This document shows positions 9,327 through 54,895 of a DNA stretch of 64,000 nucleotides, piece after piece. Source of the stretch: Malania oleifera. Taxonomy: Eukaryota; Streptophyta; Magnoliopsida; Santalales; Ximeniaceae. The notes beneath the pieces are model-generated. The model searched no databases. It saw only the letters and a list, made by a program, of their open reading frames with translations, and was not told the DNA's origin. The stretch covers positions 16,770,049 to 16,834,048 of the forward strand of contig NC_080422.1 in the NCBI RefSeq assembly GCF_029873635.1. The letters are read 5' to 3'. Made by a program: the position numbers and the translations under genes. How positions within the stretch are numbered: position 1 is the first letter of the stretch; the number at the start of each line of letters is the position of its first letter.

Positions 9327-11317
9327 TGTGAATTCCAATGTTATCCCAAGAGGGGGGGGGGTGAATTGGGTATTTTCAAAAATCAAGTCTTTCAAGTTCT
9401 AATTTTGAAAACTATCAATTACAAACTTGCAATCCACTTAATAACTGGCTCAGTGTTTCATAATTAATCAATTTAATGTGTCTTTGTCAAGCATGCAATT
9501 TTACCTAATTACGCACAACCTTATCAAAGCTCAATTTATGCACAATAACAGATAATTTAAATGCAAGCGGAAATTAAAAGGAGTTAAGGGAAGAGAGAAG
9601 ACAAACACGATTTTTACGAGGTTCAACCTACCCCAGCCTACGTCCTCGCCTTGAGCAACCCACTTAAGAATTCCATTAAAAATCTGTTCCTTTAACTGAG
9701 ACAGAGCTTCCCTTACAATCCACTGCTTACAAGAAGTATAACTTCCTTCTTAACCCTGGTTCATAGCCCGAATAGTGAATACAATATAAAAATTACAATT
9801 TTTGCAAAACTCAAATTGCTTCTAACCAAGCTAGTGAGTACAATGGAAATTCTAGTACATACTCATATGATAAAAGTTTGAAACTCAATATGTATGTATC
9901 AATATGATCTTTATATGAAGAATGAGATGTTTCACAAATCTACCCTTTAATTAATATCTCTCAAAAATGATTTTATAAATAAATGTTTTGGAGAAACTTA
10001 GAGTTCTATTTTAAAGAATTTTATGCAAGAATATAACTAAGATCCTTTTTAACATAATCTTCAATAATATGTAGATCTATGTTCTTGCTATCAAATAATT
10101 AGTAGACATAAATCTTTGAATAAAAATATAACTGTGAATCTTGCAAAGATTTAAATAAACTACTTAAAAGATACTCCTAAAAAATATGTATTTAGAAGCT
10201 TTAAAAATTTAATCAACTAGTTTCTGCAATAACAAAATATCAAATCTTTGGATGAAAATAAAAACTTGAATATCACAAATATTCAACCTTTAGCAAAATC
10301 CTTTCTCAAATAAATTTTTCAAGTAATAACACACGGATTTTCCGTAACACACAGATTTTCCTTCTTATAAAGATAGTAGATATATGAGTATGAAAAACAA
10401 CTTTGAGGTATATATATATTGGAATCACAAACCAACCACTTATTAATCAAACCTCAGTCACCAAGGAATGCTCGCAAGATGTGTAGATGAAATTCCTTTA
10501 AAAAGCTTAGATGATTTGCCCAAAGAGTATAAATGCAGTAGAGTATTGGAAAATTCTTTAAAGTGGAGGCACACTTAGCACAAGATCACAAGATTAGTCT
10601 CTCTCAAGTGTTCTTCTTGTGTCTCCAGGGTTTAAGGTGTGTTTAAATAGTGTTCTCACTCTCATATTAAATTCTAGCCATCGGATCATTTAAAAATAAA
10701 GGTTTTACGCCTGTGTCTGCACTAAAATGTCATTATGCGCTGCGACCTTCATTGACGAATGGGTACGTTCGTCGATGAGTGTACAACACACGTTCGTTGA
10801 CGAGGCCATGAGTTCATCGACGAGAGCACTGTTTGAACTTTTTGGCCTCTCGGTATTTTTTCGTTGACGAGACAACATTGTTCATTGCCGAGTGGCCTTC
10901 ATAAGTTCGTCGACGAGGCCAAGGGGTTCATCGACGAGGCAACTAAAATTTACCTCAAAAAATTTATTCAATCTAGAACTAATGTAAATGAATATTTCAT
11001 GAAATGCATGAGTCCTAAGGTCAGTATAGGGAATGTTTAAGCTTCAAAGTGTGTCATATAAAATATGTACATACATTCAATTCTAAATGCCCATTCCCAT
11101 TGAAGATCTTGAACTTGTAGTTTGCTTTGTCATCCTTTCATTCTTCTAGTTTCATGGATTAAGTCAAGTGATATGTACTTTAGGTTCCTCGTGGCTTCCA
11201 TACAAGTTTACCGTTCGTGCATTCTAAATCATGATCTTGTTCCCAAACTCAATTGCATATGTCAAATACCAAGTGATTTGTGATTATCAAAATAGGATTG
11301 GACTCATAGAATCAACA
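9327..11317 (-). repeat. Copia B 3' LTR
   Basis: A 1991-bp LTR. It carries the CAAGAGGGGG-GTGAATTGGG segment common in SIRE-like LTRs. A minus-strand TATA-like TATTTAAA lies at 10642-10649 and a palindrome cluster lies just upstream of it (10740-10950). It ends at ATCAACA (11317), directly followed by a purine tract on the minus strand. Confidence 0.88.
10740..10950 (-). promoter_or_regulatory. GTCGAC-core palindrome cluster in Copia B 3' LTR
   Basis: About eight copies or near-copies of the 10-bp palindrome TCGTCGACGA occur in about 200 bp (for example TCGTCGATGA, TCGTTGACGA, TCATCGACGA). Most differences are C-to-T or G-to-A at CpG. The cluster lies about 95 bp upstream, on the minus strand, of the TATA-like box. 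Function unknown. Confidence 0.7.
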
Positions 11318-12209
11318 ATCTCTTCCTTTTTGATGATGACAAACACATGAGCAAAAATGGGTTACGCCTAAAAAGGCTCCCCCTCAAATAATGCATATTT
11401 TAGAATTCGACAATATAACAATATAGTTTACACACAATAAAGTTCATACACATTATAGAATATGCAGTATTTTTACTAGTACAACTTCTCCCTTTTTGAC
11501 TTTTGGAAAAATATCCCCCTTTATTTCAAAAGAAAAGAAAAAAAAAATTGCCTACTAACTTCTCCCCCTTTTGACAAAGGAAAGCAAAGCAACCATTTTT
11601 GCTTACTAACTTCTCCCCTTTTTGACATCAACAAGAAAGGTATAGAAAAAAATTTTTTCTGACATAAATATACTTTATCTTTGCAATCAAAATACATTTC
11701 AACCTTTACGTGTCAAAATTGTGTCACGAAATATATCTTCTTGTGTTATTCGAATTACTTCTCCCCCTTGCTAATGTAAATCTATGTTATTGAATCAAAT
11801 TTCAATGTGAACATACACAGTATTTTAACTTACATAGACATGGATAAGCAAATCAGTCCATTAAAGTCCTAAGGTTTATGTGAGCACCAACATATGTCAT
11901 GTGTCCATAAAAATTTAACATGCAATAACCATGCTCTAAGTTTAATACCAAATGTGAACAAATTTTCCAAATGTGAAAATTTTAACCAATTTTTAATTTT
12001 AATGTAACTTGCTTCCCCTTAATTATATAGTCTAATGTGACTTTAGGCAACTTCTCAACTATGCATCAGACCTAGTTCCAGTCTAATTTGGATAAACCTA
12101 TCCTTCGAAAGTGGTTTTGTGAATATGTCTACCCATTGTTCATTTGTGCATATAAACTCAAGTATCACATCTCCTTTTTGCACATGGTCATGAAGGAAAT
12201 GATGTCTAA
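11318..12209 (-). other. Copia B 3' untranslated region with repeated polypurine-like boxes
   Basis: No coding sequence is seen on the minus strand between the RNase H end and the 3' LTR. The stretch directly inside the LTR (11318-11331) is purine-rich on the minus strand and is the likely polypurine tract. Four or five further boxes of the form AAAAGGGGGAGAAGTT (minus strand) occur at about 11375-11390, 11483-11500, 11557-11575, 11608-11626 and 11756-11770. Confidence 0.6.
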
Positions 12210-14113
12210 TTTATATGTGTTTAGTTCGTGAATGTGATATAGGATTCTTTGAGATACTTATTGCCCTTGTATTATCACATCTTATAGGAACTGTGTCATT
12301 GTAATGCCCCGACCCTATATATGGCCCCGGAGTGCTACTACACCTGTATAATACACCTGTCTTTGATAAACATACATGTACAACCCGCCCTAAAAAGGGA
12401 CATACAGGTGTTTCATACTGATCTGTAATCTCATGCACATCGTAAAAAATAAACATTCTTATGAAATCTATAAGACAAACCAGAGTTTCTAACTGTATCC
12501 TCACATACATATGATCGTGCTTAAAACATAACATATTCTTACAATTCCCCAAAAAGACATTTTGAACTAAGTTTATTACATATACAAAAAACTTACGTAA
12601 TCTATACACAATACAACACTCCAAGTCCCTCTAGAAACTAAGACCAAAGTCCTGTAGGACCTAAAACAAAGGTTGTATGTTGGGGTGAGACACTTCTCAC
12701 TAAGGTAGAAGATATTACATCAGTGTGTGACAATACATATTCAAACCAGTAGAAAGCAGTTACATATTAAGCGTATTCTCAATATTGTAATATAGGAGAT
12801 ATTTATATATTTCCCGCAATAGATAATTCAGCATTGCTACAAGCAAGAATTCCCGAGGTTAAGGTAGCGTACAGGCACATACACTGTACAATCCCTACGC
12901 CCGGTACTCAAACCTGTGACATGCCCATTTTAGTTTTTAAATCATGTATGTGCATATTTAGAACACCACCCAGCTTAGAAACTTCATAACAAATGCCAAC
13001 ACTGCCCTTTGGCGCAGGTTATGTGATCATAAATTCCTGAACAAACCCTACCCTATGCAGATTATGGTTACTATAGTCCGACTGAACCCATCTGGTCCAT
13101 TAATCCACCAGTGACACACACCTACCCAGCCGACTATCTTGATACCCACACTGAAAATCATATGTGTGGTTGCACTGTATCTAGAAAATAGCAACAGAAC
13201 CATGCTTAAGCATTTTAAGGCTTCATATAACGTTGAGCTTTTTAAGGCTCTCATAGTAACAAGCTGCGGTCCCAATATCATTTATATAATTTACAATAAA
13301 ACAATTAACTTGTTTCCAATTATAAATCACCTGTACAGTTCCAGTATTTTCACAAACTCATTCATTCATACTATGGTATAAATCGACACACACACCCTCG
13401 GTTTAACCCTTTTCACATATAAAGCTCGGTATATAACCGACACCTATTTTACACATTTTCAGATAGCAAAATGGAACTTCAGTTCCCATAGTTCATATAC
13501 GTATTTAACCAGATTTACATATTCCATTTCATATCATATGCCACACTCATTTGGACAAAAATACGCTATATATAGTATATGACTCAAAAAGTAACATTTA
13601 AACGGAAAACAAGGGATTCAAGCATGTCCTACATTATGTTTAATGCAAATAAAGAAGTTTTGAAAAGTTTGGAGATCATACGCCAAAACCCTCATTTTTA
13701 GCAAAACCGTAGAATCATAAAATCGACATTTTTACCTGGTGAAACTTTGCAAATAAGCAGTCTATACGTGCATAAAAACATGAGCTAACTTTTTGGCGGT
13801 TTAGTTTTCTAAAATGACTAATGTAAACAAATCCCCTTACCTTTCCCTGAACACTAAAACGCGAACTACACGGCTCCAAAACAACGAACCGAGTTTTTAG
13901 AACCTAAAAACCAAAGAACAATACTTCAATATAATCCTATTTACTACAGATCTACCAAACCAAAAACGAACTTAGACCATTACCTTGATTTTGGGATAAA
14001 ACCCAAAAATCCTCAAAATGAAGATCCAATCTACTATAATCGAAAAAGTTTTCCCCCTAGTCCATGTAGTAACGTCGGATCGTTGATTCGGGTGACGAAT
14101 AGCGACGAATCAA

Positions 14114-14115
14114 AG

Positions 14116-14187
<72 letters not shown>
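14114..14187. repeat. (GATA)n then (GA)n microsatellite
   Basis: About nine GATA units run into about twenty GA units inside the element C 3' LTR. The partner LTR has only short GA runs at about 22985-23035, so the expansion arose after insertion or differed between the LTRs. Confidence 0.9.
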
Positions 14188-14190
<3 letters not shown>

Positions 14191-14249
14191 TTGTGATTTC
14201 TTAACCATTAAGCAACTAAAAATGATATTAATGGACCCCTTGACCCGAT

Positions 14250-14460
14250 CAAATTCGTCGACGAATTGTGCCTTTGTCGACGAGCCATAGAAGGCTCTTT
14301 GTCGACGAACCTCTTCCCTCGTCGATGAACCCTAGTCTAACACTTTTCCTATCGGTCGGGATCTTTTCCTCGCTGAGGCATTGAATTTTTGTGATGAAGC
14401 ACAGAAGGGCCTTCATCGACAAGAACCTTGGCTTTGTCGATGAAGCCTACTAAAATTACC
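14250..14460 (-). promoter_or_regulatory. GTCGAC-core palindrome cluster, element C 3' LTR
   Basis: Copies include TTCGTCGACGAA, TTGTCGACGAG, TTGTCGACGAA and CTCGTCGATGAA. The matching cluster in the other LTR (23098-23310) ends about 20 bp from a minus-strand TATA-like sequence. Confidence 0.7.
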
Positions 14461-14768
14461 TTTTTACCTTTTTATTATTTATTTCCTTAATTTATAGGTT
14501 CGGGTCTCTACAATCTCCCCTCCTTATAAAAAATTTGTTCTCAAAATTTGTTAATTTTTTCTAAGCATAACCTTACCTTATGACTCAGTTCTACAGAAGA
14601 GTTGGCAGCCACCCACATAGCGGCTCTGACCCAAGTTTATTACATACCCTCACATATGGCGGAGAAATATCATAGTTACAATGTAATGCTTTCGGGAGAT
14701 TACAATACACATACAAAACTCTCCCAAAAATCATATCTAAAATAACCTGAACCACCTATTCTACTTAC

Positions 14769-21187: not shown

Positions 21188-23351
21188 TATAACGCGCCGG
21201 CCCTATATATAGCCCCGGAGTGCTACTACACCTGTATAATACACATGTCTTTGATAATCATACATGCACAACCCGCCCTGAAAAGGGACATACGGGTGTT
21301 TCATCCTAATCTATAATTTCATGCACAGTAGAAAACATAAACATTCATATGGATTCTATAAGACAAATTGGAGTTTCTAACTGTATCCTCACATACATAC
21401 AATCGTGCTTAAAATATAATCTGTTCTTACAATTCCCTAAAAATACATTTTAAACTAAGTCTATTACATATAAAAAACACTTATGTAATCTATACACAAT
21501 ACGACACTCCAGTCCCTCTAGAAACTAGGACCAACGTCTTGCAGGACCTGAAACAAAGGTTGTATGTTAAGGTGAGACACTTCTGAGTAAGCTGGAAGAT
21601 ATTACATTAGTGTGTGACAATATATTCAAACTAGTAGAAAGGAGTTACATATCAAGCATATTCTCAATACTGTAATATTGGAGATATTTATATATTTCCT
21701 GTAATAGATAATTCAACATCGCTGCAAGCGAGAGTTCTTGAGGTTAAGGTAGGGTAGAGGCCCATACAATGTACAAACCCTCCGCCCGGTACTCAAACTT
21801 GCGACTTTACCCATTTCAGTTTTTAAATCATGTATAGGCATATTTAGAACACCACCCAGCTTAGAAACTTCATAACAAATGCCAACACTACCCTTTGGCA
21901 CGGGTTATGCAATCATAAATTCCTAAACAAACCCTACCCTATACAAGCACTTATTAGTCATTATGGTTACTATAGTCTGACTGAATCCACCTAGTCCATT
22001 AATCCACTAGTCGCACACATCTACCCAGCCAACTATCTTGATACCCATACTGAAAATCATATGTGTGGTTGCACTGTATCTAGAAAATAGCAACGGAACC
22101 GCGTTTAAGCTTTTTAAGGCTCTCATAGTAACAAGTTGCGGTCTCAATATCATATATATAATTTACAATAAAACAATTAAATTGTTTCCAATTACAAATC
22201 ACCTATACAGTTCCAGTATGTTTACAAACTCATTCATTCATACTATGGTATAAACCGACACACACACCCTCGGTTTAACCCTTTTCACATATAAAGCTTA
22301 GTATATAACCAACACTTGATTTCTACATTTTCAGATAGTAAAATGGAATTTCAGTTTCCATAGTTCATATATGTATTTAACCAGATTCACATATTCCATT
22401 TCATATCATATGCCACACTCATTTGGATAAAAATCCGCTATATATAGTATATAACTCGAAAAGTAACATTTAAATGGAAAACATGGGGTTCAAGCATCTC
22501 CTACGTCAAGTTTAATACAAATAAATAAGTTTTGAAAAGTTTGGAGATCGTACGCCAAAACCCTCAACTTTACCAAAACCGTAAAATTGTAAAACTAGCA
22601 TTTTTACCTAGTAAAACTTTGCAACTAAGCAATCAATGCGTGCATAAAAACATAAGTTAACTTTTTAGCGGTTTAGTTTTGTAAAATGACTGATGTAAAC
22701 AAATCCCCTAACCTTTCCCCGAGCACTGAAACATGAACTACACGGCTCCAAAACAACGAACTGAGTTCTCAGAACCTACAAACCAAAGAACAATACTTCA
22801 ACACAATCCTATTTACTATAGATCTACCGAACCAAAAAAGAACTTAGACCCTTATCTCTATATCGAGATAAAACCCGAAAATCCTTGAAATGAAGATCCA
22901 ATCCGCTATAATCGTAGAGGTTCCCCCCCCCTTGATCCACGTAGTAACGTCGGATTGTTGATTCGGGTGACGAACAGCAAAGGATCGAAGAGAGAGAAAA
23001 AAAGAGAGTTTGTCGGCTTTAGAGAGAGAGAGAGCTTTTGTGATTTATTAACCATTAAACAACTAAAAATGATATTTATAGACCCCTTGACCCATTCAAA
23101 TTCTTTGAGGAATTGTGCCTTCGTCGACGAGCCACAGAAGGCTCTTCGTCGACGAACATCTTCCCTCGTCGACAAATCCTAGTCTGATATTTTTCCTATC
23201 GGTAGGGATCTCTTCGTTGCCAAGGCTCTGAATTTTGGTGACGAAGCCCTGAAGGGCCTTCGTCAACAAGAACCTTGACTTCGTCGACGAAGCCTGCTAA
23301 AATTACCTTTTTCTTATTTATTTCCTTATTTTATGGGTTCGGGTCTCTACA
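21188..23351 (-). repeat. Element C 5' LTR
   Basis: A 2164-bp LTR parallel to 12300-14512. It carries the stem-loop motif (21570-21592), a TATA-like box on the minus strand at 23074-23080 and a palindrome cluster at 23098-23310. Confidence 0.88.
23098..23310 (-). promoter_or_regulatory. GTCGAC-core palindrome cluster, element C 5' LTR
   Basis: At least seven copies or near-copies of TCGTCGACGA (for example CTTCGTCGACGAG, CTTCGTCGACGAA). The lowest copy lies about 20-40 bp upstream, on the minus strand, of the TATA-like TATAAAT at 23074-23080. Confidence 0.72.
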
Positions 23352-23356
23352 GTCAT

Positions 23357-29280: not shown

Positions 29281-30470
29281 AATGACGGTTTCAAAACCAT
29301 CACTAATACCCTATTATTAGTGACTGTTCTCCCAAACCGTCACTAATACCCTTATCTAATTTGTTTTTTTTATATTTTTTAAATAAAAAAACTAGTAGTG
29401 ACGGTTTCAAAACCGTCACTAATACCCAATTATTAGTGACGGTTCTCCAAACCATCACTAATACCTTTAACTAACTTTTTTTTTTTTTAAATAAAAACAC
29501 TAGTAGTGACAGTTTCAAAACCGTCACTAATACCCTATTATTAGTGACGGTTCTCCCAAACCATCACTAATACCCTTACCTAATTTGTTTTTTTATATTT
29601 TTTAAATAAAAACACTAGTAGTGACAGTTTCAAAACCATCACTAATACCCTATTATTAGTGACGGTTCTCCAAATAGTCACTAATAGCTTTAACTTTTTA
29701 AATAAAAACACTAGTAGTGACGGTTTCAAAACCGTCACTAATACCCTATTATTAGTGACGGTTCTCCCAACCCATCACTAATATCCTTACCTAATTTTTT
29801 TTTTAATATTTTTTAAATAAAAACACTAGTAGTGACGATTTCAAAACCGTCACTAATACCCTATTATTAGTGACGGTTCTCCAAACCGTCATTAATACCC
29901 AATTATTAGTGACGATTCTCTCAAACAGTCACTAATACCCTTAACAATTTTTTTTTATTTTTGAAATAAAAACACTAGTAGTGACGGTTTTAAAACCGTC
30001 ACTAATACCCTGTTATTAGTGACGATTCTCCCAAACTGTCGCTAATACTTAACTAATTTTTTTTTATTTATTTTTCAAATAAAAAACTAGTAGTGAGGGT
30101 TTCAAAATCGTCACTAATACCCTCAATTAATTTTATTTATTTATTCATAAATATTAGCAGTGACGGTTAGTTAATCGTTACTAATAAGTGAGTTTTAGTG
30201 ACGAATTTAATCCACCACTAATACCCTAGAATCGTCGCTAATATTTTCCCGGAAAAATTTTCACGCGAAAATTGTTTATCGCGTTATTTTTAGTGATGAA
30301 AGTATTAGTGACGGTTTTAAAATCGTCACTAATAGTGTCGTATTAGTGACGGCTGCTAAAACCGTCACTAATGCTTACACTATTCATGACGGTTCTTAAA
30401 AACCGTGATTAATACAACACTATTAGTGACGGTTTTAAAATCGTCACTAATACTTTCGTCACTAAAAACT
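29281..30470. repeat. CACTA element E right subterminal repeat array
   Basis: A tandem array of units starting CTAGTAGTGACGGTTTC at about 29391, 29501, 29616, 29711, 29826, 29976 and 30088, so 95-150 bp apart. Each unit has two inverted pairs of the TTAGTGACGG motif separated by a T-rich spacer. It is much longer and more regular than the left array. Confidence 0.85.
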
Positions 30471-32523: not shown

Positions 32524-32535
32524 GCTCTGATACCA
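32524..32535 (-). promoter_or_regulatory. Copia B primer-binding site
   Basis: Minus-strand TGGTATCAGAGC, the initiator-methionine tRNA complement, two bases inside the 5' LTR. Confidence 0.88.
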
Positions 32536-32537
32536 AA

Positions 32538-33580
32538 TGTGAATTGCTTTGTTATCTCAAGAGGAGGGTGAATTGGGTATTTTCAAAAATTAAGTCCTTC
32601 AAATTTTAATTTTGAAAACTATCAATTACAAACTTGCAATCTACTTAATAACTAGCTCAATGTTTCACAATTAATCAATTTAATGTGTGTCTTTATCGAG
32701 CATACAATTTTACCCAATTACCCACAACCTTATCAAATGCTCAATTCATACACAATAATAAATAATTTAAATGCAAGTGAAAATTAAAAGGAGTTAAGGG
32801 AAGACAAACACGACTTTTACAAGGTTCGGCCTACCCGAGCCTACGTCCTCGCCTTGAGCAACCCACTCAAGGATTCCACTAAAAATTTGCTCCTTTAACT
32901 GGGACAGAGTTTCCCTTACAATCCGCTGCTTACAAGAGGCGTAGCTTCCTCCTCAACCCCGGTTCATAGCTCGAACAGTGAATACAATATAAAAATTTCA
33001 ATTTTTGAAAAACTCAAGTTGCTTCTAACCAAGTTAGGGAGTACAATAGAAATTATGGTACATACTCATATGATAAAAGCTTGAAACTCAATATGTATGT
33101 ATCAATATGATCTTTATATGAAGAATGAGATGCTTCACAAATCTACCCTTTAATCAATATCTCCCAAAAATGATTTATAAATAAATGCTTTGGGGAAACT
33201 TAGGGTTCTATTTTAAAGTATTTTATGTAAGAATATAAACTAAGATCCTTTTTAACTTAATCTTCAATAATACGCAAATCTATGTTCTTGCTATCAAATA
33301 ATTAGTAGACTTAAATATTTGAATAAAAACATAACTTTCAATTTTGCAAAGATTTAAACAAACTACTCCTAAAAAATATGTATTTAGAAGCTTTAAAAAT
33401 TTAATCAACTAGTTTCTGCAATAACAAAATATTGAATCTTTGAATGAAAATAAAAACTTGAATATCACAAATATTCAACCTTTAACAAAATCGTTTCTCA
33501 AATAAATTTTTCAAGTAATAACACATGAAGTTTCCTTCTCAATAAAGACAGTAGATATATGAGTATGAAAAACAACTTTG

Positions 33581-33620
<40 letters not shown>

Positions 33621-34514
33621 ATCACAAACCAATCACTTATTTATGAAACCTCAATCACCAAGGAATGCTTGCAAGATGTGCAGATGAAATTCCTTTGAAA
33701 AGTTTAGATGATTTTCCCAAAGAGTATAGATGTAGTAGAGTATTGAAAAATTCTTTAGAGTGTAGGCACACTTAGCACAAGATCACAAGATTAGTCTCTC
33801 TCAAGTTTTCTTCTTATGTCTCTAGGGTTTAGGGTGTGTTTAAATAGTGTTCTCACTCTCAGATTAAATCTTGACCGTCGGATCATTTAAAAATAAAGGT
33901 TTTACGTCCATGTCCGCACTGAAATGTCATTATGCACCACAACCTTTGTCGATGAATGGGTATGTTTGTCGATGAGTGTATAACACTCGTTCGTTGATGA
34001 GGCCATGAGTTTGTTGATGAGAGCACTATCTGAACTTTTTGGGCTCTTCATATTTTTTCGTCAATGAGACAACACTGTTCATCACCGAGTGGCCTTTATG
34101 AGTTCATCAACGAGGCCAAAGGGTTTGTCGACGGAGCTGCTAAAATTTGCCTTAAAAAATTTATTCAACCTAGAACTAATGTAAATGAATATTTCATGAA
34201 ATGCATGATTCCTAAGGTCAGTCTAGGGAATGTTTGAGCTTCAAAGTGTATCATATGAAATACGTAAATACATTCAATTCTAAATACCCATTTCCATTAA
34301 AGATCTTCAACTTGAAGCTTGCTTCTTCATCCTTTTATTCTTCTAGTTCCATGGATTGAGCCAAATGATATGTACTTTAGGCTCCTCATAGCTTCCATAC
34401 AAGTTTACCGTTCATGCATTCTAAATCATGATCCTGTTCACAAACTCAATTGCATAGGTCAAATACCAAGTGATTCGTTATTATCAAAACAGGATTTGAC
34501 TCATAGAGTCAATA
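32538..34514 (-). repeat. Copia B 5' LTR
   Basis: A 1977-bp LTR matching 9327-11317. It has a minus-strand TATA-like TATTTAAA at 33839-33846, an (AT)n run at 33582-33616 that is absent from the partner LTR, and a palindrome cluster at 33945-34140. Its outer end is followed by the target duplication GAGCT. Confidence 0.88.
33945..34140 (-). promoter_or_regulatory. GTCGAC-core palindrome cluster, Copia B 5' LTR (decayed)
   Basis: Same position as the cluster in the 3' LTR, but most copies have lost their CpGs to TpG or CpA, leaving forms such as TTGTCGATGA and TTCATCAACGA. Confidence 0.65.
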
Positions 34515-34519
34515 GAGCT

Positions 34520-35835
34520 TTTATCAATAAAGCACAGACAACCTCCAATAAGTGACAATTTTTCCACTCATCAATCCCATTTTGTTGGGGTGTATAGGTA
34601 AAAGTAGTTCAATGAATGATTTCGTGTGCTTCCAAATATTGCTGCAATTCAAAATTCAAATATTCTCTTCCATTGTCACTATGGAGGACCTTAACTTGTA
34701 CATTGTATTGAGTATGAATCATTTTATGAAAATTTTGAAATAACACGTTCACTTCTCCTTTGGACTTCATCAAGCACACCCAAGTCATCATGGTACAATC
34801 GTCAATAGAAGTAACAAACCAACTTGATCCACCCAAGGTAGTGACTTTGGATGGACCCCAAACATCAGAATGTATAACCATAAAAGGTACTGAACTTTTA
34901 TTCAAAGTTAATGGGAATGAAGTACAATGACTCTTCGCAAGTTCACAAACATCACATTTAAAACTAGCAACATCAAATTTTGCAAATAAAGTAGAAATAA
35001 TTTCTTGAGATAACCAAAAGAAGTATGCCCCGGACGTTGATGCCATAACCAGATGTCAGATCTTTTCTTTTCTCCCTAAGAACCATCCACCTTCAGATCT
35101 TGACCCAACTTGTGTAAACTCTTTGATATCAAGTCCAGGTAATATAACTTCCCTCACCTAACACCACAACCAATCATCAGCCGCTTTCGGAAGTCCTTAA
35201 ACACACAAAATTAAGGCCAAAAAATTACAACACAAAATAAGGCAGTGGTTATTTGGGAAACTGACAAAAGATTATAATTCAAAGATGGAACAACTAAAAC
35301 AAAATCTAAATTCAAAGTGTCAGTGAGGGGCAAAGATCCTTCCCTAATAACTGGGGTTGAAGTACCATTGGAAGTGGAAATGGATATTTGTGAAGACAGT
35401 TTAAGGGTTGAGACTTGTCTAGAATCAAATGTCATATGATTTGTAGCACCAGAATCAATTATCCATGCACCATTAGAAATAGGTGTAGACATATGTAAAA
35501 AACTTACCACCATTACTTGCGACTGCTACCTATGCCGAGACCTTTTCAGTAATCTCATACGCCGCATTTGTTTCAACAATCGCAACAGTAGTGGTCTTCT
35601 TGGGATTCCACTTCCGTGGATCATGGTTGTGATCCCACCATTCTAGATATCCCACAAGTTCAAAGCATTGACTTTTGGTATGACCAGTTTGATTACAATG
35701 AGTGCATTTATAGGTGGATTTGTCGGCTCCATTATTTGTCTTATGATGACTGGACTTTATTCAAACCTGCTAGTTTTGAGGAGGTTGGTATCGAGCCACC
35801 ATGGCTGAAGCTTCAAATTTTTCAAGGTCTCCATT
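34520..35835 (-). pseudogene. Copia A: zinc knuckle, protease, integrase N-terminal half
   Basis: Reading right to left: gag end with a CCHC knuckle (CTHCNQTGHTKSQCFELVGY, about 35640-35710), protease (35211-35513, with WIIDSGATNHMTFDS), the pre-integrase zinc region and integrase core (34609-35046, with CDVCELAKSHCTSFP, VIHSDVWGPS, LHSDNGREYLN). The sequence continues on the far side of Copia B at 9326. Ty1/Copia; broken and older than every element inserted in it. Confidence 0.87.
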
Positions 35836-40480: not shown

Positions 40481-40548
40481 TGAAAGAACCCGAATTTGTA
40501 TTGTACCGGATAAGTATGTATAAGAGGGGTAAAATGGGAATTCTGCAG

Positions 40549-40745
40549 ACTTCATCGACGAGGCCATAATTCGTCGACGAAGGTAGTGGATTTCTCATCG
40601 ACGAAATTCAGAGCCTCGTCGACGAGAAAGAGCCAAGAGGCGGTAAAAATTGGAAATATCAGGGTTTGTTGACGAGGCCATCGGTTCATCGATGAATTTT
40701 GTGAAGACTTCGTCAACGAGAAGACCAATTCGTCGACGAAATCCC
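40549..40745 (+). promoter_or_regulatory. GTCGAC-core palindrome cluster and TATA box, element F
   Basis: Eight copies or near-copies of TCGTCGACGA in under 200 bp, at least four of them perfect. The last copy ends about 20 bp before the TATA box at 40761-40768. This is the best-preserved cluster in the window. Confidence 0.78.
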
Positions 40746-41599
40746 TCGGGTCAAAGGTCTTTATAAAGATATTTTGGGCTTGCTTCATTGCTAAGTTTTG
40801 GTTTCTCTCTCTCTCTCTCTCTCTCTTCGATTCCTTCACCGTTTGTTGCCGGATTTACAAATCCAAAGTGATAGCGAGGATCAGCGAAGGATTCTCTACG
40901 TTTCAACTGGATCGAAATCTCGATTCGAGCGTTTTTGGGTTCGGGCCAAAATCGAGGTAAGGCTCGGTTTTCATTTCTGATTCGGTATGTGTATAGTAGT
41001 ATGAATTGTAAGTATGTTTAGTATTGTGGTTTGTAGATTTCAAAGTCTCGGTTCGTAGTTTTGAGGACCGTAGAGTTCGTAGTGGATTTCGGGTTAAGGT
41101 AAAGGGATTCTATTTATATCAGTTCATTTTTGAAATCAGGATCCGTAAGCTTATAGGCTACGATCGTATGTATGTTTTGACCACTTATTTTGGGAAATCT
41201 ATTGGGTAAAAATGCGGGATTTTTGGGTTACAGTTTTTCGGGAAAATTGAGAATTTCGAGTATCATCTCTACTTTGGTTAGAAAACCGCTTGTCTTGTTT
41301 AAAACTTTATTATTGAGGTGACTGTAATCCATATTTGCATAAACTGTATACTTGGAATTGTAAACAATATGATTTTCCGTAAACCATATAAGTGTGGTAC
41401 GTATGAATGTATGTATGTTGTTCCAGATATTTGTGAAACAGCTATGTGGCGATTTATTACTGTACGCTAAAATGAAATGATTTCAGGTTTTGTGAAATCA
41501 GCTAGTGGCAGCTAATTACTGTACGCCGAGAGTGGCTGGCTCTATATCTAGGGTGTGAAATATCACCAATATGGTTCGGCTGGTCACCAAAGGTATGAT

Positions 41600-41915
41600 C
41601 TACACCGTTTGTAGCAATGGATTCACAGTGGGCCTAGGTCGTCGCAGCGTAGTTGTCACATGGCAATGTAATCGGGGTGAGACTAGGTGACCTTGTGTAG
41701 TTGTGTATGTAGCAATGGATTTACTATTGGGCCTGAGTCGTAGATCTTCGTAGTTGCATGTGTAGAAACGTAATCACAGTGAGACTGGGTGACCTTGTGT
41801 AGTTGCGTATGATGCAATGGATTCACCATTGGGCCTTGATCGTCATAGTGTAGTTGCGTATTTAGCAATGTAATCAATGTGAGACGAGGTGACCTGGTGT
41901 AGTTGCGAACTAGTG
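41600..41915 (+). repeat. ~100-bp tandem repeat in element F LTR
   Basis: About three units marked by GTGAGAC-AGGTGACC at 41677, 41779 and 41879, each followed by GTGTAGTTGCGTATG and ATGGATTCACNATTGGGCC. It lies in the presumed leader between the TATA box and the stem-loop. Confidence 0.85.
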
Positions 41916-42879
41916 TAACGACACTGACTGTATGTATGTATGTATGTATGTATGTTGGGTATCGTATGAATTGGAATGATTTTTGTGAAAATACTGGAAC
42001 TGTATGGAAAAGTATGAAACTGTATGAATTGTTTCAAACTGTATCGTATATATAGTGTTATGACGTATGTAAAATAACACTAGTATGCCACACACTGATA
42101 TAAACTACTTTCTTCTTTACTAAGAGGTGTCTCACCCCGAAAGTACGAACAATATTTTTTAGGGCCTTCAGGTAGCGGTAAGTAACATCCTAGCATCGGG
42201 AAGCAAGGGGTGTCATAGCTACTGCTAGTACCTTTTAGGTATGAGTTTTGGTATCCAGGTTGTCGGGATGTTTTGTAGACACCTGGGGTACGTTTGTATT
42301 ATGGGAAGGTGTATCCTAGCGTGTATAAATTAGACTTTGGTATGATAATGTTATTGTATAAAAAGATTGTATTCCGCTACGTATTCTGGATAGTATGGAT
42401 GGTTGTATGTATGTATATAGGGCATCTGTATACCCCACGGGGTCAGATCCTCATTGTATGATGTATCATGTATGTTTTTAATTGATACAGAGATAGGTTA
42501 GGTTCTTAAATTCACCCCCGGGTCCCATTTCCGGGTTCAGGGCATGACAGCTTGGTATCAGAGCTAACTAGGTTGTTAGGTCTTGTATACTTGGTTAGGA
42601 GTATTGTTAAGTATGTACCAAAGTATAGGATGTAGGGAATGGGTAGTGTTGATCGAGGGTTGTTCTGTTGCTAGATTGGGATTTGTCAGCGGTGTTCCAT
42701 GTTTTTCCTAGGATGATGATTCTAGTAAAGGCAGGGCAGACCATTGACGACTTTCGTGTCAGTGTGACAGGACAGGCTTAGATCTGTGGGAGTAGTAGTT
42801 GACATGATTAGGTCTATGATTGTGTTAACTGTGTACGATATAGGAATTCTAACCGATTCCTATTCTGTTTTCAGTATGA

Positions 42880-44918
42880 AGCCCAAGGATAACAACTTGG
42901 AAAGTGGTTCCGAGGAGACAGCTAGCGATGAGTCTCCTTCTATGTCTCATGGTTTGGCGAGACAGGTGATCCGAGAGATTGGGTAGAGTGTTAGGAGACG
43001 CGAGAGTTCTCCTACTGATGTGGGGTGTACCATTGAGAGGTTCACACGCATGCACCCTCTGACATTTACTGGAGGACCTGATTCGATAGTGGCGAAGGAC
43101 TAGGTCGAGAAGACCGAGAGGATTTTGGAAGTCCTCCATTGCACTAAGAAGCAGAAGGTCTTGTATGCTACCTTTCAGTTGATTGGGGAGGCAAGGCGAT
43201 GGTGGACGGCAGTGAGCCTGATGGAGAGGCAGAGAGCTGGTCCATCTAGCATGACGTGAGGTCATTTCAAGGAGGTATTTTTTCGAGAGATACTTTCCGG
43301 TCTCCACTTGGGATGCGAAGGCCGATGAGTTTTCAGGCCTAGTACAAGCTACTTTGACTGTGCAGAAGTATGTTATCAGATTTATCGAGTTGTCTTGATT
43401 CGTACCGTACTTGGTTCCGAATGAGCACGAGAAGGCTCGAAAGTTCGAGAGGGGTCTGAGGAAAGACATCCGCCGTCTTGTGGGGATGCTGCAGATCCGT
43501 GAGTTCTCTGTCCTGGTGGATAAAGCCACCATAGTTGAGACCGACCTTCGGGGAGATGAGGTAGTACAGGTTCAGGGGAAGAGGCCAGTATCTTCTGGTT
43601 CTCAGAGTGGTCCTCAGCAGGGACATTGGAAGAAGAAGAGCTATAGTTCTGGTTATCGGCAGAACACCGATCGGTTAAGTTCTCAGGGGGATCCATCCTC
43701 CGCACCGTGTGCTAAGTGCCGTAAATGGCACGAGGGTGAGTGTCGACCTTTTTGGGGTGTTTGCTACAATTGTGGCGAGTCGAACCACATGGTGAAGAAC
43801 TGTCAGGAACCGAGGAGGATTATGCCTGCACTGAGACAAAGCAGTGGAAGTAACCAGGTGCCTCGGGTGAATTATCAGGCAACCACGGCTCCGGCAAGAG
43901 TATATTCACTTACTTCAATAGATGTAGAACACGCTAGGAACGTGGTGACAGGTACCATGTTATTGCTTTCGAATAAAGCTGTTGTGTTATTTGATTTGGG
44001 GGCAACCCATTCGTTCATATCTGCTAGTTTTGTGAAATTGTGTGGGGTTGAAACCCAACTTTTGGAGGAATGTTTGGCTGTAACTACGCCGACTGGGAGT
44101 ATAACGATTTGTAATAAGATGTTAGGAAACTGCCTGGCTGTGATTCAGGAGAGACTGTTACCGGCGAATCTTGTAGTATATGACATGTCAGTTTTGATGT
44201 CATATTGAGAATGGATTAGTTGTTCTCTAGCTATGCGGTAATTGATTGTCGTAGGAAGGTAGTAGTGTTCAAATCTCCTAGCAAGCAAGAGTGTGAGTTC
44301 GTTGGATCGTGTGTTCATTCTACACCATAGATTCTATCAGCTTTACAGGCGAGGAGGTTACTCTTAGATGGTTGTCAGGGGTACCTAGCTTGTGTGAAGG
44401 AACCGCCATGAGATGAGTTGAGACTCGAGGATATTAGGGTAGTCGACGAGTTTCTGGATGTGTTTCCTAATGAATTACCCGGTTTACCTTCGAATCATGA
44501 GGTGGAGTTTACGATTGAGTTGCTGCCTGGTAAGGCACCAATCTTTAAAGCTCCTTACAGGATGGCTCCAGCAGAACTTTGGGAGTTGAAGGAGCAATTG
44601 CAAGAATTACTAGACAGGGGATTCATTCGACCTAGTGTTTCGCCATGGGGAGCTTGAGTACTATTTGTGAAGAAGAAGGACAGGTCAATGCATATGTGCA
44701 TTGATTACCGCAAGATCAACAAAGTGATGGTGAAGAACCGTTACCCTTTGCCTCATATAGATGATCTTTTTGACCAACTGCAGGGAACGTAGGTCTTTTT
44801 GAAGATTGACTTGCGGTCAAGATATCATCAGGTGAGGGTTAGAACAGAGGATGTGGCAAAGACTGCTTTCTGAACCAGATATGGCCACTACGAGTTTTTG
44901 GTCATGCCGTTTGGTTTG
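42880..44918 (+). pseudogene. Element F: gag, protease and start of reverse transcriptase
   Basis: Gag (about 42880-43815) has the capsid segment and a CCHC knuckle CYNCGESNHMVKNC near 43761-43802. Protease follows (about 43890-44210) with VLFDLGATHSFISASFVKLCG. Reverse transcriptase begins at about 44418 with [17 protein letters not shown] and [20 protein letters not shown], and runs to VMPFGL near 44918, where the element passes into LTR sequence. Broken. Confidence 0.87.
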
Positions 44919-45471
44919 AACTGTATGGAAAAGTATGAAACTGTATGAATTGTTTCAAACTGTATCGTATGTATAGTGTTATGACGTATGTAAAATAACA
45001 CTGGTATGCCACATACTGATATAAACTGCTTTCTTCTTTACTGAGAGGTGTCTCACCCTGAACGTACGTACAATATTTTTCAGGGCCTTCAGGTAGCGGT
45101 AAGTAACATCCTAGCGTCAGGAAGCAAGGGGTGTCGTAGCTACTGCTAGTACCTTTTAGGTACGATTTTTGGTATCCAGGTTGTCAGGATGTTTTTGTAG
45201 ACACCTGGGGTACGTTTGTATTATGGGAAGGTGTATCCTAACGTGTATAAAATAGACTCTGGTATGATAATGTTATTGTATAAAAAGACCATATTCCACT
45301 GCATATTCTAGATAGTATGGCTGGTTGTATATATGTATATAGCGCATCCGTATACCCCACGGGGTCAGATCCTCATTGTATGATGTATCATGTATGTTTT
45401 TAATTGATACAGAGATAGGTTAGGTTCTTAAATTCAACCCCAGGTCCCATTTCCAGGTTCAGGGCGTGACA
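44919..45471 (+). repeat. Element F 3' LTR, terminal part only
   Basis: It matches 41995-42549 of the 5' LTR, including the stem-loop (45038-45060) and the end. Confidence 0.88.
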
Positions 45472-45476
45472 TAAAG

Positions 45477-45557
45477 CAAGGACTTGTAACTCATTTGCGC
45501 CATCATAAAATGCTTTGGAAAGAGCATTCCAAATATCACGTGCGGTGGGTAAGAGGA
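45477..45557 (-). pseudogene. Copia A: gag fragment between elements F and G
   Basis: The minus strand reads LLPTARDIWNALSKAFYDGA then NELQVLAL, a conserved Copia gag segment. Its downstream part continues at 40480 across element F; its upstream part is not found beyond element G. Confidence 0.85.
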
Positions 45558-45634
45558 TGTGACGAATCGAATAATAATGGTATTTAAATAATAAAGAGGA
45601 AGGGAAATGGAAACAGAAACAAAAGGAGGCAGCA

Positions 45635-45875
45635 AACGTCGACGACATTACACTTTGGGAGTAATAACTGACGAAATTTATCAGGTCCTCGTCAACGAAC
45701 ACAGGGGATTCGTTGACGAGGGTACAAGAGGACCTCATCGACAAAGCCAAGTTTCGTCGACGAGAAGATACCGAGAGAGAATTTTTGGAAGTCTAAAATT
45801 TGTCGATGAGGGTGCAGGTTCATCGATGAACTTTCTACAAGACTCGTCGATGAAGTGACGTGTCTCGTCGATGAA
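45635..45875 (+). promoter_or_regulatory. GTCGAC-core palindrome cluster, element G 5' LTR
   Basis: Nine to ten copies or near-copies of TCGTCGACGA, for example ACGTCGACGAC, TTCGTTGACGAG, TTCGTCGACGAG, CTCGTCGATGAA. The last ends about 10 bp before the TATA box. Confidence 0.75.
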
Positions 45876-46624
45876 TCCAGCTCTATAAATAGCCTAAAAC
45901 TCGGATTTAATTGCAGAAAATCAGAAATCTCTCACTCTTTCTCTCTCCCTATGATTTCTCTCTCCTCTCTCTTTGATTTCAGCTCCGTCGTTCGCCGAAT
46001 CGACGATCTGAGGCCACCACGACGCTCTTGGGGAAGTTCTCTCCAAATCTGCTGGAGCGGATCGTTGGTGGAAGCTAGTCGAAATTCATCCCTCAGTTGG
46101 GGTAAAGCTTTTTATGTCGAATTTGGTCTTACTGTAGTTATAGGAAATGATATTCACATGAAAATACCGAAGTTTAGTTCTGTGAGTTATTATTTTTAGG
46201 GAGTTGAACGGGGAACCGTGCGAGTGCAGGGCTGAAAATTTAGGGGGTTTCTTTCGATGTCAGGTAAGGGAATAAACTAAAGCAGTTATTTTCCATTCAA
46301 ATTATTATTATTTATCAATAAATAAATTTTCAGGAAAGCATTTATTATATCAGTATATTATGAAGGAAATGCACATTTGGGAAAATACTGCTATTATGTT
46401 GAAATGTATATATAGGTATGAGATGCCAGAAATTATGATTTTAGAATATAAAGTATGGTTTATACAGCAAATATGTGGCATGAATATTACTTTACGTGAG
46501 ATGTATTATGATATGACTATGTTATGAATAAAACATGTTTTCAAGAATATGAATTATTACATTACAAAATGATGTTGAAAATACATAATAATTGATTTAT
46601 TATTCAGAATAATATGTATAAGAT

Positions 46625-46765
46625 ATTCGGTGCGAGGCCGTGATTGATAGTAGATGCGAGGCCATGTTTTACGTATGATTTCGACGCGAGGTCTTATTTG
46701 TTAAATGTTTGGCATAAGGCCGTATTTATGAAATGTTCAGCGCGAGGTCATATTTATGAAATTAT
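46625..46765 (+). repeat. ~30-bp minisatellite in element G 5' LTR
   Basis: Five units containing GGCGCGAGGCCGT-TTTAT-AA or variants. The 3' LTR copy (about 53798-53975) has an extra partial duplication, so unit number differs between the LTRs of one element. Confidence 0.8.
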
Positions 46766-48049
46766 AGAAATGCTATCAATCTATTTATGTTAAACGCTAT
46801 ATTATCATGTATTAAATGTCATCAAAACCCGAATGTTAGTTTAGTTCAGTTCAGGAGCATGGTACCATAGCTTATAGATCAGATATCAATGGTCAGATTG
46901 GTGCTAACCACCCCACGAGGGGGTGGGAGATGGATAGTCGATGTGGCTTTTAGTGTAGAGTGTAGACGTCCACCTAACAATTCAGACCAGGGTGTGGCAG
47001 GTCCATCGTACTTACAGACATTTTTGACTTGACAGTGGTCGGCCAGCCATTGTCGGGTCCCGCGTTCGGACTGCACAACCCGTCATGGGGGTAATACATG
47101 ACATCAGCTAGCTATTAATCCTAGGTATGTTTTTAGCATTACTAGTTATATCAGATAATTATGATTACTATGATGTATTAGAAATATGAAAGTATATGTT
47201 TTTGCAATTATTAAATGACGAATGTTTTCTGGTATGAAGTTTATACTATATATCTATATTATCATTAAGTATTCATGTTGCGACACAGCTGTATTTAGTT
47301 TATTTTCTTTTACTGAGAAGTGTCTCACCCTCGAACATTAAATGATTTTCAGGGAATCCAAAAAGACCGGTGGATGGAGGCCGTCGTTGAGATAGAGTGG
47401 TACTACCCTGTTAGGAGGGTAAGTTCTAGTCTAGGGGCAAGAAATTCATATTTTAGGTCCCTAGACATGAGTGTATTTTTGGGAATTTTTGGAAACAATA
47501 TATAAATATTGTGCTTTGGGGTTACAGTTAACTATAGTATTTTGTATTTTGTGGTAATGAGGTTGACTGTTTTGTTTATTTTGTATTACAGTTAACTCTA
47601 ATATTTTGTATTTACACTTACTGCTACCTAGGTTCCGCTATGTATGACAGGTGTCCTCGCTACCCAAGAGTTCGGGTTGACTGTTTTGTTTATTTTTCTT
47701 TTCTTATATGAGTATATAAGCAAGTCGTTACAGTTTGGTATCAAAGCCTACAATACTAGGTTCTGTAGACTTTAGAATGCAGCAGTAATAATACCAGAGT
47801 ATAGGATAAAGGGATTTTAGGTCTAGTTTTGTAGTCTAGATGTAGGACTTTCGTGGTGGTTTGTGTGATTTTCCTAGGGTGACGATTTTAGAAAAGTCAT
47901 GGTAAACTATCGTCGGGTTGGGTATCTAGGTTGCAGGATTGAACCTTGAATTAAGATCAGAAGAGATGAATTAATTAGGAGAATATATTATATGAGTTGG
48001 ATGATATATATAGATAAGGGATTCTGAGTTTATTTATTTATTTTTCAAG

Positions 48050-52480: not shown

Positions 52481-52748
52481 AAGAAGTCCATATGTGATTA
52501 AGAAATGTGAGTAAATATGTAATGTTTCTTTTGCAGGTACATGTAATATTCTAGTAGTAGGTGGTATTTTAGTCTTGGGGGAATTTTCTTTTGGTTTATG
52601 TAATCTCCCAAGACTTGAAATATAATCACGGTATTCCTCCGCCATAAGTGAGGGCAAGTAATAAAATAAGTAGACCATTTTTCTTTAAGGGATGATGAAT
52701 TATATAAATAGTAAATTTCGAGGACGAAAATTTATAAGGAGGGGAGAA

Positions 52749-54895
52749 TGTGACGAACCAAATAATAATGGTATTTAAATAATAAAGAGGAAAGGGAAAT
52801 GGAAACAGAAATAGAAGGAGGCAGTAGACGTTGACGACATTGCACTTTGGGAGTAATAACTGAGGAAATTTATCAGGTCCTCGTCGACAAACACAGGCGA
52901 TTCATCGACGAGGGTACAAGAGGGCTTCGTCCACGAAGCCAAGTTTCGTCAATGAGAAGATACCAAGAGAGAATTTTTGGAAGTCTGAAATTCGTCGATG
53001 AGGGTGCAGGTTCATCGATGAACTTTCTACAGGACTCATCGATGAGGTGATGTGTCTCATCGACGAATCCGGCTCTATAAATAGCCTAAAACTTAGATTT
53101 AATTGCAGAAAATCAGAAATCTCTCACTATTTCTCTCTCCTCTCTCTTCGATTTTGACTCCGTCGTTCACCGGATCAACGATCTGAGGCCACCACGATGC
53201 TCCTAGGGAAGTTCTCTCCAAATCTACCGAAGCAGATCGTTCGTGGAAGCTAGTTGAAATTCATCCCTAAGTTGAGGTAAGGTTTTTTATGCCAAATTTG
53301 GTCTTACTGTAGTTATAGGAAATGATATTCACATGAAAATATAGAAGTTTAGTTCTGCGAGTTATTATTTTCAAGGAGTTGAACGGGGAACCCTGTGAGT
53401 GCAGGACCGAAAATTTTAGGGGGTTTCTTTCAGTGTCAGGTAAGGGAATAAACTAAAACAGTTATTTTCTATGCAAATTATTATTATTTATCAGTAAATA
53501 AATTTTCAGGAAAGCATGTATTATATCAGTATATTATAAAGGAAATGCACATTTAGGAAAATACCTGCTATTATGTTGAAATGTATATATAGGTATGAGA
53601 TGCCAAAAATTATGATTTTAAAATATAAAGTATGGTTTTATACAGCAAATGTATGGCATGAATATTACTTTACGTGAGAAGTATTATGATATGACTATGT
53701 TATGAATAAAACATGTTTTCAAGAATATGAATTATTACAGTACAAAATGATGTTGAAAATACATGATAATTGATTTATTATTCATAATAATATGTATAGG
53801 ATATTCGGCGCAAGGTCGTGATTGATAGCCGGTGTGAGGCCGTGTTTTACTTATGATTTCGGCACGATGCCGTATTTATTAAATGTTTGGCACGAGGCCA
53901 TATTTATGAAATGTTCGGCGCAAGGCCGTATTTATGAAGTTATAGAAATGCTATCAATCGTGCCGTATTTATGAAGTTATAGAAATGCTATCAATCTATT
54001 TATGTTAAACGTTATATTATCATGTATTATATGTTATCAGAACCCGGATGTTAGTTTAGTTCAATTCAGGAGCACGGTACCATAACTTATAGATCAGATA
54101 TCTATGATCAGATTGGTGCTAACCACCCCACGAGGGGATGGGAGATGGATAGTCGATATGGCTTTTAGTGTAGAGTGTAGACATCCACCTGGCAGTTTGG
54201 ACCAGGGTGTGGCGGGCTCATCGTACTTATAGACATTTTTGACTTGACAGTGGTCGACTAGCCATTGTCGGGTCCTACCTTCAGGCTGCACAACCCGTCA
54301 TAGGGGGTAATACATGACATCAGTTAACTATTCATCCTAGGTATGTTTTCAGTATTACTAGCTATATCAGACAATTATAATTACTATGATGTATTAGAAA
54401 TATGAAAGTATATGTTTTTGCAATTATTAAATAATGAATTTTTCTAGTGTGAAGTTTGTATTGTATATCTATATTACTATTAAGTATTCATGTTGCGACA
54501 CAACTGTATTTAGTTTATTTTCTTTTACTGAGAAGTGTCTCACCCCAAACATTAAATGATTTTTAGGGAACCCAGAAAGACCGGCGGATCGAGGTCGCCT
54601 TTGAGATAGAGTGGTACTACCCCGTTAGAAGGGTAAGTTCTAATCTAGGGGCTGGAAATTCATATCGTAGGTCCCTAGACATGAGTGTATTTTTGGGAAT
54701 TTTTGGAGACTATATATAAATACTGTGTTTTGGGGTTATAGTTAACTCTGGTATTTTGTATTTTGTGGTAATGAGGTTGATGATTTACACTTACTGTTGC
54801 CTAGGTTCCGCTGTGTATGACAGGTGTCCCCACTACCCATGGGTTCGGGTTAACTATTTTATTTATTTTTCTTTTCTTATATGAGTATATAAGCA
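52749..54895 (+). repeat. Element G 3' LTR
   Basis: It matches the 5' LTR from TGTGACGAA to TATATAAGCA. It includes a palindrome cluster (52830-53065), TATA box (53076-53082), minisatellite (53798-53975) and stem-loop (54526-54545). Confidence 0.88.

Follow-up and report, generated by a model that had tools for sequence, protein, structure and literature searches.

Palindromic, CpG-containing repeats upstream of the TATA box are known from the Sireviruses, where these RM boxes occur in at least eight copies per element (Bousios et al. 2010, PMC2829016). In the parts of that description covered here, their core is CGG-CCG (12/13) or ACAATCGATTGT, with Tnd-1 as the published departure from the CGG-CCG core; among Copia elements the boxes are described as specific to Sireviruses and absent from the classic ones, and a common binding factor for the palindromes could not be named (PMC2829016). 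The palindromes of maize Sireviruses (Bousios et al. 2016) are taken here from passages of two other papers, according to which hotspots of small RNA mapping lie over the LTR palindromes, and the palindrome occurs in Helitrons too (PMC10760457, PMC5311732). A third system is that of the VANDAL elements, in whose non-coding DNA the VANC motif YAGTATTAY, which is non-palindromic, forms same-orientation arrays (PMC5735166, in the part used here).

In the window, the whole 64-kb stretch of Malania oleifera DNA analysed here, the Copia family B and the Ty3 families C, F and G carry arrays that resemble RM boxes in being palindromic CpG repeats, at least eight in number and clustered shortly upstream of the TATA box. 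They differ in that the core is TCGTCGACGA, not CGG-CCG or ACAATCGATTGT, and in that the same array is found in Ty3 elements, so that the confinement to Sireviruses does not hold; the fixed eight-site layout is also not described for RM boxes in the covered parts of that paper (PMC2829016). With the maize palindromes the arrays share a location in an LTR cis-region and strong predicted folding, but the sequence is a different one (excerpts of PMC10760457, PMC5311732). As in VANC-bound arrays, a short motif lies in non-coding DNA of a transposable element, often within tandem repeats; VANDALs, however, are DNA transposons with a VANC protein of their own, and their motif is non-palindromic and in one orientation (PMC5735166, in part). 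The comparison with VANC made in an earlier note on this DNA is a loose analogy, and the closer precedent, which that note did not name, lies in the palindromic repeats that Sireviruses carry upstream of the TATA box. In limited literature searches, with sources covered in part, we found no report of RM-like palindromic CpG repeats upstream of TATA in Ty3 elements, and the matches listed for the motif held nothing on plant LTR palindromes. The kind of array is known from Sireviruses, and these limited searches suggest that what is new here is the other core, the near-fixed layout and the presence in Ty3 elements.

Eight-box arrays upstream of the TATA box

The earlier note had pointed to clusters with a GTCGAC core, and the counts bear this out: with at most one mismatch, TCGTCGACGA is matched 32 times in the window (9 exact), compared with a mean of 0.37 and a largest count of 2 in 100 dinucleotide-preserving shuffles. 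All but one of these matches (31/32) lie inside the seven clusters first pointed out, the remaining one being at 44440. When two mismatches are allowed, the 3347 bp of the seven module regions hold 52 matches and the remaining window 12. Of the 1024 palindromic 10-mers, only three, all of them AT-only, rank above TCGTCGACGA, which leads those bearing a CpG. The core within it is GTCGAC, not the CGG-CCG of the RM box.

Aligning 56 boxes, eight from each of seven LTR copies, gives the 12-bp palindrome YTCGTCGACGAR as consensus; the left flanking letter is Y and the right one R in 56/56 boxes. Perfect boxes number 9/56, and 47/56 are either perfect or changed by CpG decay only. Within three mismatches of the consensus are 55/56; the exception is box 3 (14388) of the C 3' LTR (C1), which has five mismatches, was missed by the three-mismatch scan and is placed by register only. 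The weakest boxes are the third and fourth of C, the eighth of the C 5' LTR (C2) and the third of B.

In element F the module occupies 40552 to 40739 on the forward strand, with boxes starting at 40552, 40571, 40595, 40616, 40666, 40686, 40710 and 40730; three are exact, three have one change and two have two, all changes being of the CpG type. This agrees with the claim of about eight palindrome copies before the TATA box of F. The same palindrome was said to recur in clusters of B, C and G, and each of these does hold eight in-register positions, making seven LTR copies in all. On the reverse strand the modules are those of the B 3' LTR (B1, 10749 to 10937), the B 5' LTR (B2, 33946 to 34134, where no exact box is left), C1 (14255 to 14443) and C2 (23102 to 23290); on the forward strand they are those of the G 5' LTR (G1, 45689 to 45874) and the G 3' LTR (G2, 52881 to 53066). 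Apart from box 3 of C1, these positions come from the box scan. A possible ninth box lies upstream in G, at 45636 and 52828, and is without the YT start of the other boxes.

The layout is approximately 20-25-20-47-20-25-20 bp in every family: 21-25-21-47-20-25-20 in B, 21-25-21-48-20-25-19 in C (taken from C2), 19-24-21-50-20-24-20 in F and 21-25-19-46-20-24-21 in G. Summed over the seven gaps, B differs from C by 2 bp, from F by 7 and from G by 5, while C and F differ by 7 bp and F and G by 10 bp. Of 200,000 layouts in which eight boxes were placed at random over the same span, 0, 1 and 0 came as close to C, F and G, respectively, as B does, although a further 1 bp of difference was allowed; the model behind this comparison is a simple one that leaves out functional constraint on spacing. 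When B's own gaps are reordered, 8, 24 and 40 of the 5040 permutations are as close to C, F and G.

The module consists of two halves of four boxes each. The two halves match as a direct repeat in B1 (0/1000 shuffles as good), B2 (5/1000) and C1 (3/1000), and the direct repeat is unclear in C2 (113/1000), G1 (76/1000), G2 (108/1000) and F (42/1000). No copy has inverted similarity of its halves in the shuffle comparison, and we reject an inverted-repeat origin. By hand reckoning of helical phase, 20-21 bp correspond to about two turns; neither 25 nor 47 bp makes a whole number of turns.

Downstream of box 8, the TATA box follows after 9 bp in G (TATAAA at 45884 to 45889, forward strand), 21 bp in C2, 22 bp in F (40762 to 40767, forward strand) and 99 bp in B; in C1 the TATA itself is altered. 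The gap thus measures 9-22 bp in the Ty3 elements and 99 bp in B, so the two superfamilies have no fixed distance in common. Of the proposal that the module holds the same promoter position everywhere, the location upstream of TATA stands for all families, and a constant distance does not.

Pattern searches of other collections gave little. A first pattern matched three stretches of 69-70% G+C in a viral contig collection, which we judged to be non-plant. A second, with stricter spacing, matched 0 viral and 0 genome contigs (and only 1/7 modules of the window itself), and a third, looser one, which recovers 4/7 window modules, matched 0 viral contigs and one genome contig. The latter belongs to Flavobacteriaceae, has 36% G+C and no box within one mismatch, and was judged to be a chance match. 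Protein searches of the viral contigs, starting from a piece of Ty3 RNase H and from one of Copia RT, also led to no confirmed relative. The collections scanned do not consist of plant genomes, and the negatives therefore say little.

Box decay and predicted folding

Of 83 changes in the boxes, 71 are CpG decay and 12 of other kinds. Sites whose CpG is gone from both LTRs of a pair are 8/24 in B, 5/24 in C and 4/24 in G, where 6.5, 5.0 and 4.6 are expected if the sites were intact at insertion and lost independently; the counts fit elements that were inserted with intact boxes and then decayed independently. Boxes with every CpG present in at least one LTR copy are only 1/8 in B, four in C and five in G. 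Silenced copies would lose their CpGs through methylation.

Between families, box identity is 0.79-0.89 as read and 0.94-1.00 when CpG decay is counted as consensus, a correction that leans to the consensus; spacer identity is 0.60-0.79 after gap alignment, a value raised by free gap placement. The boxes are conserved above the spacers, which suggests selection in active copies. Within silent copies we see no sign of occupancy, since box CpGs decay about as fast as the other CpGs of the LTR: the ratio of sites intact in both copies to sites lost in one is 21:30 in boxes and 61:89 elsewhere, sums from which TA and other changes are excluded (4 within boxes, 35 outside). On these counts we reject a protection of box CpGs.

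The folding of the modules bears on the possibility that transcripts of the boxes form hairpins that feed small RNA production, the array being a trap that marks the LTR for methylation. All modules do fold better than their dinucleotide shuffles (z -2.3 to -6.0), and the small RNA hotspots over maize Sirevirus LTR palindromes (PMC10760457, PMC5311732, in the parts covered) are what such a trap might produce. However, when the boxes are kept and the spacers shuffled, the excess falls to z 0.1 to -1.6 in 6/7 modules, with C2 at -3.6, so that the structure is mainly a by-product of the repeated palindromes; a trap alone also leaves the retention of boxes in active lineages unexplained. We give this reading a minor share of our confidence. 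On the same shuffles we reject selection of the spacers for hairpins, except possibly in C2.

Host elements and a probable shared origin of the module

Self-BLAST places the LTR pairs of B at 9327-11315 and 32538-34512, of C at 12302-14515 and 21190-23354, and of G at 45553-47722 and 52744-54895. B and C are minus-strand elements with the target site duplications AGCTC and ATGAC, respectively. Element F, whose ends and target duplication (TAAAG) were read from the flanking sequence, spans 40481-45471; its 5' LTR runs from 40481 to 42549 on the forward strand, and it is internally deleted, with only 44918-45471 left of its 3' LTR. Tandem repeats of about 102 bp are seen in the F LTR at 41606-41907. 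There is also an apparent three-deep nest at 8523-35055, in which a Copia element is seemingly split by B, and B by C; the outer Copia is represented by an integrase core (34612-35055) and an SH3-like piece (8523-9296).

A Pfam scan covered 20 of the 45 ORF pieces of at least 110 aa, and no domain beyond retroelement ones was above the cut-off. RVT_2 and Pol_BBD were found in B, SH3_Tf2-1 and a Ty3-type RNase H in C and G, and RVP_2 in C and F, the F pieces being protease and zinc knuckle. C, F and G may be chromoviruses of the Tekay type, G with a possible chromodomain-like tail.

B has the hallmarks of a Sirevirus. Its linker carries polypurine tracts AGGGGGAG upstream of the 3' LTR (11377 to 11768, minus strand), in three exact copies (11377, 11562, 11761) and three with one mismatch, and its terminal polypurine tract has two changes, AGGAAGAG. 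The Sirevirus 5' junction CA / ATTGG / TATCAGAGC is present as ACA-TTTGG-TATCAGAGC with one difference in the 5-bp gap, the primer-binding site lying at 32524 to 32532 (minus strand); TATCAGAGC by itself is not diagnostic, as it is exact in F and within one mismatch in C and G. A C-rich stretch near the LTR 3' end, seen by eye in both B copies, corresponds to the C-rich integrase signal, and the RM-box trait of at least eight palindromes upstream of TATA has its counterpart in the eight boxes of each of the seven LTR copies (1/56 degenerate). Judged from these sequence features, B is a Sirevirus-like Copia element. Between its coding pieces is an array of TAGTGACGGTTT/AAACCGTCACTA palindromic repeats (29283-30468), perhaps similar to the repeats that lie subterminally in non-autonomous CACTA-type elements.

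C, F and G are, by sequence comparison, related Ty3 elements. The internal DNA of F matches C (65%) and G (69%). Through the module and the TATA region, C1 aligns with F at a score of 98 (shuffle maximum 28), an alignment that takes in a CT tract, and C2 with F at 67 (maximum 29); the rest of the C and F LTRs scores 114 (maximum 31, with a reverse-strand control reaching 46), and close to the 3' end of the LTR there is a short segment that G has in common with C (41, maximum 33) and with F (46, maximum 33). CT-rich tracts are seen on the sense strand just past the TATA region at 40804-40826 in F, 14114-14187 in C and 45935-45980 in G. Since the three are related and their LTRs partly alignable, common descent suffices to explain the module among them. 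The earlier note had called the families unrelated, their LTRs otherwise unalignable, and whole-LTR descent insufficient; the first of these statements fails for C, F and G, and the other two survive only for B against the Ty3 families, where similarity is confined to the module and no score outside it is above the largest of 30 shuffles (the F sequence before the module being too short for this comparison).

Inside the module, the central spacer of B1 (10824 to 10860, minus strand) resembles its counterparts in C2, F and G1: when every stretch of equal length in the other LTR is scored, those within the module among them, only 1/2127, 4/2035 and 9/2118, respectively, are as good. B thus shares with the Ty3 modules both spacing and central spacer, which favours the exchange of a single homologous module. 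One of the two routes offered by the note, independent gain in unrelated families, is not supported, given the kinship of C, F and G and the layout and central spacer that B has in common with them.

The main rival to a shared origin is convergence, in which a Sirevirus and a Ty3 lineage each built the array under one host complex that requires these sites and distances. The greater similarity of boxes than of spacers would be expected from it, and so would the poor keeping of register by the short spacers. With the box-flanking letters fixed, 8 (B1-G1), 12 (B1-C1) and 32 (B1-F) of 2000 shuffles are as good, and the similarity is not significant for B1-C2 (279/2000) and B2-G2 (275/2000); of 720 permutations of spacer order, 76 (B1-G1), 394 (B1-C2) and 109 (B1-F) are as good, compared with 40 (C2-F), 247 (C2-G1) and 59 (F-G1) among the Ty3 modules. 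The evidence is mixed, and the short spacers alone leave the register unfixed. The upstream flanks are in part without match. For the 22-bp flank upstream of B1 box 1 (10938 to 10959, minus strand), 22/1909 and 9/2192 stretches are as good with C1 and 21/1909 and 48/2132 with G1; similarity is absent between B1 and F (1031/1909) and between F and G1 (825/2053), and weak for B2-G1 (58/1931, 113/2132) and C1-G1 (283/2192). Against convergence, the flank of B2 does resemble that of C2 (4/1931 and 4/2143), and the central spacer of B1 resembles those of C2, F and G1 as given above. We consider convergence unlikely.

One observation goes against the reading of a shared module: the Ty3 central spacers (as-good stretches 58/2035 for C2-F, 20/2118 for C2-G1 and 77/2118 for F-G1) are only modestly alike, and less so mutually than to that of B, which is not what simple descent among them would lead one to expect.

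A separate repeat, such as a miniature transposon or satellite with eight boxes that inserted into several LTR families, would account for a bounded segment shared by B and Ty3 LTRs that are otherwise dissimilar. However, inspection of the module edges by eye brought up neither terminal repeats nor target duplications, and the window holds no free copy, its outside-module matches (up to two mismatches) being scattered; this origin we regard as improbable.

We think it probable that all the clusters represent a single homologous cis-regulatory module, ~190 bp long (~210 bp with the upstream flank) and shared across superfamilies. The module may have crossed between them by recombination or template switching, or both may have taken it from a common source; its two halves could stem from a tandem duplication.

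A putative binding array and its implications

The 12-bp palindrome, the eight sites, the near-constant spacing and the position upstream of TATA make a binding array for a dimeric factor our best functional guess. The module would act as an enhancer array to which a homodimeric nuclear factor binds, with paired sites about two helical turns apart; these pairs, together with the 9-22 bp (Ty3) or 99 bp (B) to the TATA box, suggest promoter-proximal dimeric binding. From the earlier proposal of a binding array gained independently or exchanged, we retain the dimeric array as best guess and favour exchange over independent gain.

The reading we find hardest to credit is, by analogy with VANC, an anti-silencing array on which a protein of the element or the host would remove methylation: there is a dense array of a short motif in non-coding DNA of transposable elements, and the half-duplication is reminiscent of the way in which VANC motif arrays grow in tandem (PMC5735166, in part), but only retroelement domains were above the Pfam cut-off (20/45 ORF pieces), box CpGs are lost as in the rest of the LTR, and the spacing is near-constant, not variable.

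Regulatory regions of LTRs are usually treated as lineage-specific. With a sample of four families in one window, our judgement is evenly balanced on the wider proposition that a ~210-bp eight-site promoter module moves as a cassette between Ty1/copia and Ty3 elements and places several families of a single plant genome under one DNA-binding factor. The sequence YTCGTCGACGAR is a precise bait for seeking such a factor. If true, a near-fixed eight-site module in two superfamilies would mean that control regions are exchangeable between them.
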